From: an uncultured Bacilli bacterium
GTDB lineage: Bacteria; Bacillota_I; Bacilli_A; RF39; UBA660
Reading direction: 5' to 3'
Assembly: GCA_947626275.1 (NCBI GenBank)
Contig: CANQRL010000005.1
Coordinates: 1 to 64,000 of the forward strand
DNA: 64,000 bases
In this document: piece by piece, positions 4,941-57,604 of the stretch
How positions within the stretch are numbered: the first letter of the stretch is position 1
How the letters are laid out: every line of letters starts with the position of its first letter
Position numbers and translations under genes: made by a program
Notes under the pieces: generated by a model
What the model was told of the DNA's origin: nothing
The model's input: the letters and a program-made list of their open reading frames with translations, nothing else
Databases searched by the model: none

Positions 4941-5016
<76 letters not shown>

Positions 5017-5049
5017 GTTTGATAGTAGACCCGGTAAGTCTGGGAAAAA

Positions 5050-5080
5050 TAGAAAACGGCTTGTAAAAAGGTCGTTTTTA
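5050..5080 (+). terminator. Weak terminator after tRNA cluster, overlapping an RNA promoter
   Basis: An imperfect stem AAACGGC...GTCGTTT is followed by a short T run. The -35 box of the downstream RNA gene (5061-5066) sits inside this hairpin. The same arrangement recurs next to tRNA-Ala at 57587-57611. Confidence 0.55.
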
Positions 5081-5207
5081 TGTTATGATGTATCTGTCAA
5101 GGAAGCTTGCATAAAATAAAAAAGGGAAGACTTAACTTTGCCAAGTTGAGTACTTACCTAAATTGGGTGAGCACTTAATCTATGCTAGATTGAGTGCTAT
5201 TTTTTTA
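5061..5207 (+). ncRNA. Structured small RNA gene, copy 1 (promoter plus ~112-nt RNA)
   Basis: Promoter TTGTAA (5061-5066), 17 bp, TATGAT (5084-5089) predicts a start at G5096. The RNA begins with a small CAAG/CTTG hairpin, then an A-rich stretch. Hairpin 1 follows (5124-5158, stem ACTTAACTT/AAGTTGAGT extended by GGGAAG/CTTACC with one mismatch). Next come a linker containing TTGG and a 13-bp terminator hairpin (5170-5198) with a T run. A homologous gene lies at 57456-57604 with the same 5' 28 bases (one difference) and the same element spacing but different stem sequences that still pair. On the other strand hairpin 1 plus its U run works as the terminator of the convergent peptide gene at 5197-5286. 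It is probably an antitoxin-type or regulatory RNA. No named family is recognised. Confidence 0.72.
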
Positions 5208-5286
5208 TACATAGAATCATTACGGAGACTATTAATAAAATGATAATTAGTATTAGAAATGAGATTAATAAATCTTTTTTCTTCAT
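5197..5286 (-). CDS. 29-aa hydrophobic peptide, candidate type I toxin
   Basis: A 29-residue peptide with four N-terminal charged residues after Met (KKKD), a continuous Leu/Ile/Val core of about 20 residues and a C-terminal KK. This is a single membrane helix of the kind made by type I toxins such as Fst, TxpA or Ibs, with no sequence match claimed. The start is supported by AAAGGAGG 9 bases upstream and by its own promoter: TTGTAT (5376-5381), 17 bp, TATAAT (5353-5358), with start near 5346. Its stop codon lies in the terminator hairpin of the convergent RNA gene, so the two transcripts overlap by up to about 90 nt. The mRNA leader repeats motifs of that RNA (GGGAA, CTTAA, TTGAGTGCTT). Toxicity is an inference. 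Confidence 0.6.
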   Translation of the reverse strand: MKKKDLLISFLILIIILLIVSVMILCIKK

Positions 5287-5352
5287 AATATCAAGCCTCC
5301 TTTCTAAAAAAGAAAGTTGGCAAGCACTCAACAATTAAGTTTCCCTATAAGA

Positions 5353-5381
5353 ATTATAGCAAACATTTGTTCTTAATACAA
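5353..5381 (-). promoter_or_regulatory. Promoter of the 29-aa hydrophobic peptide gene
   Basis: -35 TTGTAT (complement of 5376-5381), 17-bp spacer, -10 TATAAT (complement of 5353-5358). The predicted start is near 5346, giving a leader of about 60 nt with an AAAGGAGG ribosome-binding site. Confidence 0.7.
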
Positions 5382-5643: not shown

Positions 5644-6081
5644 ATGGATATCAATGGTCTAAATGGTCTTCTTTATCTAGTCCATAAAGGGCGGGAAAAT
5701 TATGATCAGGCATTAAAAAAATGTGCGGCCGAAACTGGTCTTAGTAAACAAGAGGTAGAAGTTCTTTTTGTTTTTTATAATTCCAATAATTGTAAAAGAG
5801 CTTGTGATATTGTGTCTTGCCGTGGGTTATCAAAAGCTTACGTTTCAAAAGCTTTGGCGAATTTAACGAAAAAGGGGCTTGTGACCATGGAAATTGAAGA
5901 GGATAGGCGATATCAAAAAATTCTTCTGACAGATTCCGCTGATCAGATTGTCTTACAGATTCGTCAAGCCATTGAAGAATCTATTCAGTCTCTAACGGCA
6001 GGTATTTCTAAAGAGGATCTACAAATCTTTATGAAAGTCATTCAAAAAATGACGTTCAATGTGCAAGAGAAGGGAAGGTAA
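5644..6081 (+). CDS. MarR-family transcriptional regulator
   Basis: 145 residues, standard for the family. A winged helix-turn-helix occupies roughly residues 35-105, with 'SRGLSKAYVSKALANLTKKGLV' as the HTH and recognition helix and 'EEDRRYQKILLTD' as the wing. N- and C-terminal helices would form the dimer interface. It starts 2 bp upstream of the ABC exporter gene and its promoter carries a perfect palindrome. It therefore probably represses this operon and is relieved by an exported compound or drug, as MarR proteins next to BmrCD/LmrCD-type exporters do. Confidence 0.92.
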   Translation: MDINGLNGLLYLVHKGRENYDQALKKCAAETGLSKQEVEVLFVFYNSNNCKRACDIVSCRGLSKAYVSKALANLTKKGLVTMEIEEDRRYQKILLTDSADQIVLQIRQAIEESIQSLTAGISKEDLQIFMKVIQKMTFNVQEKGR

Positions 6082-51225: not shown

Positions 51226-51354
51226 GAAAAAAAGTAGAGAATACTCTCTACTTAAGACTATTCCTCATCTTCCGACAACGTCGCAGGATTTAGCACCTAA
51301 CTAAATAGGTTGCTGGACTTCATAGGGCCTGTCCCTCCGTCTCTCTTCATAAGG
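51226..51354 (-). promoter_or_regulatory. SAM-I riboswitch with terminator, controlling metK
   Basis: Aptamer 51263-51354 on the minus strand: P1 CCTTAT/ATGAGG, 'AGAGAGACGGAGGGA', 'GGCCCTATGAAGTCCAGCAACC' core, 'GGTGCTAAATCCTGC' with the kink-turn. These match the S-box consensus. The expression platform 51226-51252 is a terminator stem AGTAGAGA/TCTCTACT with T run. High SAM would switch metK off. Confidence 0.95.
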
Positions 51355-51372
51355 TTTTTTATTTACATGTTC

Positions 51373-57404: not shown

Positions 57405-57455
57405 TTATTTGATACTTACTATTATTCTTTATAGTAATCACCTTACTATTTAGAT

Positions 57456-57604
57456 AATAAAAACATCTGAAAACAACAATTGTTGATTTCAGATGCAATC
57501 CAACAAGGGATAACATCTGATTCACACAATCAAATGTATCCTTTTTTATTTTATGCAAGTTTCCTTGACACATTCATCATAACATAAAAACGACTCTTCT
57601 GCAA
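57456..57604 (-). ncRNA. Structured small RNA gene, copy 2 (promoter plus ~113-nt RNA)
   Basis: Promoter TTGCAG (complement of 57599-57604), 17 bp, TATGAT (57576-57581), predicted start at 57569. The first 28 nt repeat copy 1 (5096) with one base change. Hairpin 1 (57508-57541, GGATA-CATTTGATT/AATCAGATG-TATCC), a linker containing TTGG, and terminator hairpin 57464-57495 keep the same distances. The stems differ in sequence but still pair. No convergent peptide gene is seen here. A 70-codon reading frame running through the RNA is not conserved with copy 1 and is not taken as a gene. Confidence 0.7.

Follow-up and report, generated by a model that had tools for sequence, protein, structure and literature searches.

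A structured small RNA of an uncultured gut Bacilli family as the probable antitoxin of a multi-copy convergent type I module

Results

A probable antitoxin RNA facing a small peptide gene

The structured small RNA described here very probably acts as the antitoxin in a convergent type I toxin-antitoxin module that occurs in multiple copies and is specific to one family. Two copies lie in the window, that is, the whole stretch of 64,000 nucleotides that was analysed, from an uncultured Bacilli bacterium. A first-pass annotation had taken them for an independent structured RNA that can adopt an alternative fold. The RNA is indeed structured, conserved, unnamed and adjacent to tRNA genes; the stand-alone picture was incomplete, as the RNA would be the antitoxin half of a locus whose convergent peptide gene (5286-5197) had been overlooked. 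The features of the two RNA copies are as follows.

5055-5076: terminator-like hairpin of copy 1, with the -35 box of the antitoxin RNA in its loop
5061..5089, + strand: promoter of the antitoxin RNA, copy 1, TTGTAA-17-TATGAT (from sequence)
5096..5205, + strand: antitoxin small RNA, copy 1, subtype A2, predicted ends (model R1, 100.5 bits, E 7e-15 in its own genome)
5098..5109, + strand: hp0 of copy 1, the conserved 5′ hairpin CAAG-GAAG-CUUG (alignment, pair counts)
5111..5123, + strand: A-rich linker of copy 1 (near-invariant columns; opposite strand read)
5123..5159, + strand: hp1 of copy 1, the hairpin of variable sequence and, inversely, the putative terminator of the toxin mRNA (covariation, fold)
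5170..5206, + strand: hpT of copy 1, the antitoxin terminator hairpin with its U-run (fold)
57456..57569, - strand: antitoxin small RNA, copy 2, subtype B, orphan (R1, 85.9 bits, E 3.4e-12)
57463..57496, - strand: hpT of copy 2 (fold)
57508..57541, - strand: hp1 of copy 2 (fold)
57576..57604, - strand: promoter of copy 2, TTGCAG-17-TATGAT (from sequence)

Checked against the sequence, both copies lie where the first-pass annotation had placed them, with the promoters and hairpins that it described. A single base distinguishes their first ~28 transcribed nucleotides (CAAGGAAG / CAAGGAAA), in line with the near-identity claimed for this region. Folding gave z-scores of -4.1 for copy 1 and -4.6 for copy 2, with 0 of 200 dinucleotide shuffles equally good. 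The alternative pairing of the 3′ arm of hp1 with the 5′ arm of hpT also exists, because the same subtype-specific arms occur in both hairpins. The hairpin around the -35 box is present in most copies of the RNA (mean -6.3 kcal/mol as compared to -2.2 after shuffling).

The first-pass annotation had recognised no known RNA class, and Rfam gave no match at gathering or permissive thresholds, the best E value for copy 1 being 0.95. Nine complete tRNA genes were identified in the window, whereas neither copy coincides with an Rfam RNA. Elsewhere in the window, a SAM riboswitch was found at 51262-51355 on the - strand (RF00162, 74.7 bits). A function as attenuator or leader was considered and rejected: no same-strand gene follows the RNA within the unit, the convergent ORF fills the space, and the next gene downstream of copy 1 starts at 5644.

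Distribution and covariation of the RNA family

BLAST searches with copy 1 returned seven copies in its own genome and further copies in 21 of the 57 genomes searched, all of them family members. A 25-base pattern of the 5′ region was present in at least 116 stretches of GTDB genomes, from assemblies of uncultured gut 'Bacilli', 'Tenericutes', 'Firmicutes' and Candidatus Ventrenecus. The conserved 25-mer of this region had no match in IMG/VR, and a plasmid collection gave none either. A stretch of 28 nt matched a streptococcal satellite phage, but no such module was present there and the match was judged to be due to chance.

The first-pass annotation had suggested building a covariance model and searching related genomes for copies with covariation next to tRNAs. 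This is what was found. With the model, R1, the own genome gave exactly seven strong hits. Of the 193 genomes of the order that were sampled, 140 contained the RNA, and these lie almost wholly in one uncultured gut Bacilli family; covariation is strong, and adjacency to tRNA genes recurs. Each of these genomes carried 1 to 19 copies, and all of the genomes listed belong to the same family. A class-wide sample yielded 13 family members and one genome of another family. The strong copy in an other-family genome (G377:C32:11748-11858, L260) may reflect transfer or a misbinned contig.

Covariation was measured on 46 diverse copies and 22 pairs, in an alignment built from sequence alone and not shaped by structure, the structure itself being derived from that alignment. 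In this set, 92.5% of cells were paired (82.3% after shuffling), a value that dropped to 32-42% when partners were slid by 1-3 columns. Double-change cells numbered 146 where 46 were expected, and the covariation score was 0.458 as compared to 0.260 for shuffled data. Compensatory change, which had been claimed from the two copies of the window, therefore holds across these diverse copies; the two alone were weak evidence, because they represent distinct subtypes with entirely different stems.

Six subtypes (A, A2, B, C, C2 and E; the labels are our own and a few rows are possibly misassigned) were distinguished by the hp1 sequence. All have in common hp0, the A-rich linker, hp1 and hpT. The subtypes diversified jointly with the 5′ end of the toxin mRNA, and this is the source of the combination of a preserved fold with different stems. 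The own genome has a 12.5-kb cluster of four modules (subtypes A, C and E; G000:C1:194374-206912, in L037), of which three fall within 2 kb; in this cluster, the toxin of subtype C has lost the usual mRNA leader.

A convergent ORF with the traits of a small membrane toxin

The following features of copy 1 lie on the opposite strand.

5111..5346, - strand: predicted toxin mRNA, 236 nt, whose own 5′ 28 nt pair with its 3′ tail (fold)
5197..5286, - strand: putative toxin ORF, 29 aa, MKKKDLLISFLILIIILLIVSVMILCIKK (conserved position and coding)
5296..5303, - strand: Shine-Dalgarno sequence AAAGGAGG of the toxin ORF, beside a small hairpin (from sequence)
5353..5381, - strand: toxin promoter TTGTAT-17-TATAAT (from sequence)
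5361..5372, - strand: LexA-type (SOS) box GAACAAATGTTT within the spacer of the toxin promoter (motif comparison)

The ORF lies just past the antitoxin terminator, which its stop codon abuts or overlaps; in copy 1, the ORF coordinates place the stop codon at the 3′ base of hpT. We searched for ORFs starting with ATG, 20-40 aa long, with a good Shine-Dalgarno sequence and a stop 60-150 nt from the RNA start. Such an ORF was found at 132 of the 199 copies with enough flank, as compared to 198 of 20000 random places (1.0%) and 0 of 3980 shuffles. The dN/dS ratio was 0.30 in the ORF frame, and 0.58 and 1.55 in the other frames, over 894 pairs that are not independent. The peptides are 24-34 aa long, with about 60-80% hydrophobic residues and a charged N-terminus, in keeping with the small hydrophobic product (under 60 aa, with a transmembrane stretch) expected of a type I system. 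No match to them was found in Pfam, NCBIfam, PHROGs or PDB sequences. The arrangement is that of a convergent type I toxin-antitoxin locus. The tiny membrane peptide is probably a toxin.

An intact toxin is missing at about a third of the antitoxin copies. Copy 2 is such an orphan antitoxin, which has kept its own promoter and fold. Beside it lies only a remnant, devoid of start codon, Shine-Dalgarno sequence and promoter.

57413..57457, + strand: toxin remnant of subtype B, last 14 codons (YLLLFFIVITLLFR-stop) (translation, compared with subtype B toxins)

Antitoxin-only loci are known from orz of E. coli (PMC11264685). Orphan copies may still protect the cell if a toxin of their subtype enters it.

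Two putative terminators and a predicted mRNA lock

Read on the toxin strand, hp1 precedes CCUUUUUUAUUUUAU, which is complementary to the conserved A-rich linker. This U-tract designates hp1 as the likely intrinsic terminator of the toxin mRNA, which it would end as hpT ends the antitoxin. Conservation of the linker would then follow from the need of that terminator for a U-tract, which the complement of the linker provides. With the terminator of each transcript inside the other, the two RNAs would be perfectly complementary over ~95 nt at their 3′ ends; as expected of an antisense RNA, the convergent RNA overlaps the 3′ end of the predicted toxin mRNA over this length.

The toxin mRNA, predicted to start ~6 nt after TATAAT, opens with a same-sense near-copy of hp1. 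In subtype A, for example, the mRNA start GGAACATTTAATAGTTGGGTGATTGCC can be compared to hp1, GGAACATTCAATA-loop-TGTTGAGTGTTGCC. Since the 3′ tail of the mRNA is the antisense of hp1, its two ends can pair. Folding of the predicted toxin mRNA of copy 1 gave -68.7 kcal/mol, with a z-score of -6.9. Counting as locked any mRNA with at least 15 of its first 28 nt paired with its last 62 nt, a 5′-3′ lock was predicted in 101 of 108 mRNAs, and in 9 of 108 when the 5′ end was shuffled. The energy of the lock duplex was -33.3 kcal/mol with the mRNA's own tail as compared to -18.0 with the tails of other subtypes, and the own subtype was the best lock partner in all six subtypes (6/6).

A similar preference was observed between hpT and the toxin 5′ end (-17.5 with its own toxin, -12.0 with others). 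For duplexes of hp1 with the toxin 5′ region, cognate and non-cognate pairs were not well separated in energy. A role of the hp1-toxin leader duplex as specificity determinant is therefore unsupported and was set aside, and specificity must sit in the 3′ overlap and hpT, if anywhere.

A LexA-type box in the toxin promoter

The motif GAAC-N4-GTTY was found, between the -35 and -10 boxes, in perfect form in 40 of 140 toxin promoters (0.14% of shuffles) and with at most one mismatch in 72 of 140 (4.8% of shuffles). A recognisable LexA box is thus absent from about half of these 140 promoters. The 1.4 Mb own genome contains only ten sites within one mismatch of GAACAAATGTTYG: three lie in toxin promoters (that of copy 1 among them), two before lexA, one before recA and one at 50 bp from the start of a rarA-like gene, on its upstream side; the other three lie elsewhere. 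Of the lexA promoters that could be read, in the own genome and its relatives, all 26 are within one mismatch of the motif and 14 are perfect, where shuffles gave 0.3% perfect and 10.5% with one mismatch. As half of the toxin promoters share the motif of the lexA and recA promoters, SOS control of the toxin through this box is likely.

The box before the rarA-like gene (G000:C1:84536-84548) likely marks a further SOS gene. Many toxin promoters devoid of the box (for example L058, L060 and L149) carry GTTCGMTTGTTT near the -35 box, possibly another operator.

Position behind tRNA genes

The first-pass annotation had placed both copies immediately downstream of a tRNA terminator. Adjacency to tRNA genes is real and general, but the 'tRNA terminator' is a terminator-like hairpin that holds the -35 box of the small RNA. 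A tRNA gene precedes 60 of 166 copies, on the same strand in all 60. Most of these tRNA-linked copies begin 79-84 nt, and some 51-58 nt, past the CCA end. The modules lie behind many different tRNAs and isoacceptors (loci L001-L211), and in the window at 4941-5096 and 57725-57569. Their position looks as if they had settled in the tRNA terminator. The unit's own UUUUU-ending hairpin comes after a hairpin that is similar to the terminator stem of the tRNA itself. The same tRNA-Phe is followed, in six relatives, by a plain terminator only, showing that the module was gained or lost there. Around tRNA-linked copies, no flanking direct repeats or phage-type att repeats were found except at L205. 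At that locus, the module stands between tRNA-Arg and a 29-nt duplicate of the 3′ end of that tRNA, resembling an integration footprint.

Discussion

A model for the module

We propose the following model, derived from sequence and folding. An antitoxin RNA of ~110 nt, with a constitutive-looking promoter, and a peptide mRNA of ~220-250 nt would be transcribed towards each other. Each transcript would end inside the other, with hpT stopping the antitoxin and hp1 the toxin mRNA. Pairing of the mRNA ends, together with a Shine-Dalgarno sequence in or beside a local hairpin, is predicted to give a locked, inert mRNA, which would need 3′ trimming or opening. The antitoxin would bind the 3′ end of the mRNA and could also pair with its 5′ hairpin. 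By analogy with known systems, this binding would lead to a block or to double-strand cleavage. Upon DNA damage, toxin transcription would rise through the LexA box and the antitoxin be out-titrated, as in tisB/istR-1. The peptide would then insert into the membrane, causing depolarisation or slowed growth. The subtype-specific arms of hp1, hpT and the mRNA 5′ end would limit cross-talk among copies in one cell. Weighing against this model are the lack of resemblance of the peptides to any known toxin in the databases searched, the toxin promoters devoid of a LexA box, the antitoxin copies with no intact toxin and the poor discrimination by hp1 duplexes.

Other readings of the locus

The alternative that has most to be weighed, though we consider it improbable, is that the peptide is a small membrane regulator and not a toxin, the convergent RNA being an antisense regulator with no role in killing or stasis. 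Many short hydrophobic ORFs are harmless regulators, and many chromosomal copies of the module persist. Against this, spread in many copies and many subtypes fits type I toxins (TisB, DinQ, Hok, AapA; PMC8309996, PMC6733600). The frequent loss of the toxin while the RNA is kept is likewise type I toxin-like, and the 5′-3′ lock, antisense RNA and LexA boxes match what is found with TisB, DinQ, Hok and AapA. A stand-alone regulatory or structural RNA with other targets, facing an ORF that is incidental, is very unlikely: although orphans such as copy 2 retain promoter and fold with no toxin, the ORF has a fixed position, a Shine-Dalgarno sequence, its own promoter and the mark of purifying selection, and the hairpin arms co-vary with the 5′ end of the toxin mRNA.

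The first-pass annotation had itself raised the concern that a larger repeated element, for instance a mobile terminator, might contain the shared 5′ region. This is partly borne out: the RNA does sit in a repeated unit larger than itself, although one that consists of a module of two genes. Dispersed copies at fixed spacing after many different tRNA genes, and presence or absence between genomes at the tRNA-Phe site, would suit a mobile terminator or a small non-autonomous repeat whose hairpins act at the DNA level. Two promoters, a conserved coding sequence and the general lack of flanking direct repeats make this reading scarcely tenable, and the spread of the unit is compatible with a toxin-antitoxin function. 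We give equally little credence to membership of the Fst/par family, in spite of a common plan of convergent small RNA, small hydrophobic peptide, shared repeats and Shine-Dalgarno hairpin (PMC7472228). No Fst match was found in Pfam or NCBIfam at E up to 10, and the main toxin forms, inspected as listed per subtype, lack the Trp and the charged C-terminal tail that are conserved after the helix, as well as the PXXXG-type motif (PMC7472228); prototype Fst also lacks this Trp. Moreover, the repeats are inverted here, not direct, and there are two terminators as compared to one shared.

Significance

Under the type I toxin-antitoxin reading, an abundant, previously unlabelled RNA of uncultured gut bacteria gains a name and a testable function. 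Up to 19 modules per genome persist despite genome reduction (genomes of ~1-1.5 Mb). As predicted here, one duplicated hairpin can act simultaneously as terminator, antisense site and mRNA lock, and the subtypes show how parallel sets of modules may stay mutually insulated. In the literature searched, LexA control of type I toxins is described for tisB and dinQ, both of E. coli (PMC8309996). Should the LexA boxes prove functional, SOS-controlled peptide toxins, which this literature places only in E. coli, would extend to a Bacilli lineage.

Comparison with known systems

By sequence and architecture, the putative module is a new type I toxin-antitoxin family, outside Fst. The class is known and, as far as the literature searched goes, the combination of parts is undescribed. 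More tentatively, the module may represent an undescribed SOS-controlled type I family of a reduced-genome gut lineage, in which a par-like layout is combined with a hok-like lock made from a duplicated terminator hairpin; it would comprise six specificities or more and owe its spread to lodging in the terminators of tRNA genes.

The par/Fst systems (RNA I / RNA II of pAD1 and chromosomal relatives) likewise have a convergent toxin mRNA and antisense RNA in a Firmicutes host, with repeats in both RNAs, a small hydrophobic peptide and a Shine-Dalgarno sequence in a hairpin (PMC7472228). In contrast to these, the peptides here lack the Fst signature and many toxin promoters carry a LexA box. The repeats common to both RNAs are inverted, and through them the two ends of the toxin mRNA would pair with each other; the bidirectional shared terminator is replaced by two terminators, each within the other transcript.

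Antitoxins overlapping the 3′ end, or convergent overlapping genes, are also found in Gram-positive bacteria with bsrG/SR4, yonT/SR6 and the C. difficile modules (PMC5848175, PMC6563280). Toxins are longer there, with 58 aa for yonT and 50-53 aa in C. difficile, and bear no similarity to those described here. In the literature searched, we found no report that the mRNA 5′ end nearly repeats the antitoxin hairpin. In tisB/istR-1 and dinQ/agrB of E. coli, a membrane peptide of 27-29 aa under LexA is associated with an RNA antitoxin (PMC8309996). Gene layout, small RNA and peptide sequence differ from those of the present module, whose RNA overlaps the 3′ end.

With hok/Sok and aapA/IsoA, the module shares the existence of several copies with their own antitoxins and, as predicted here, long-distance 5′-3′ pairing of the mRNA that leads to an inert form (PMC6733600). 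Such a 5′-3′ lock is used by the hok and aapA mRNAs, which become active once their 3′ end has been trimmed (PMC6733600). The peptides are unrelated and the lineage is different, and the overlap of the antitoxin described here is with the 3′ end, and not the leader, of the toxin mRNA.
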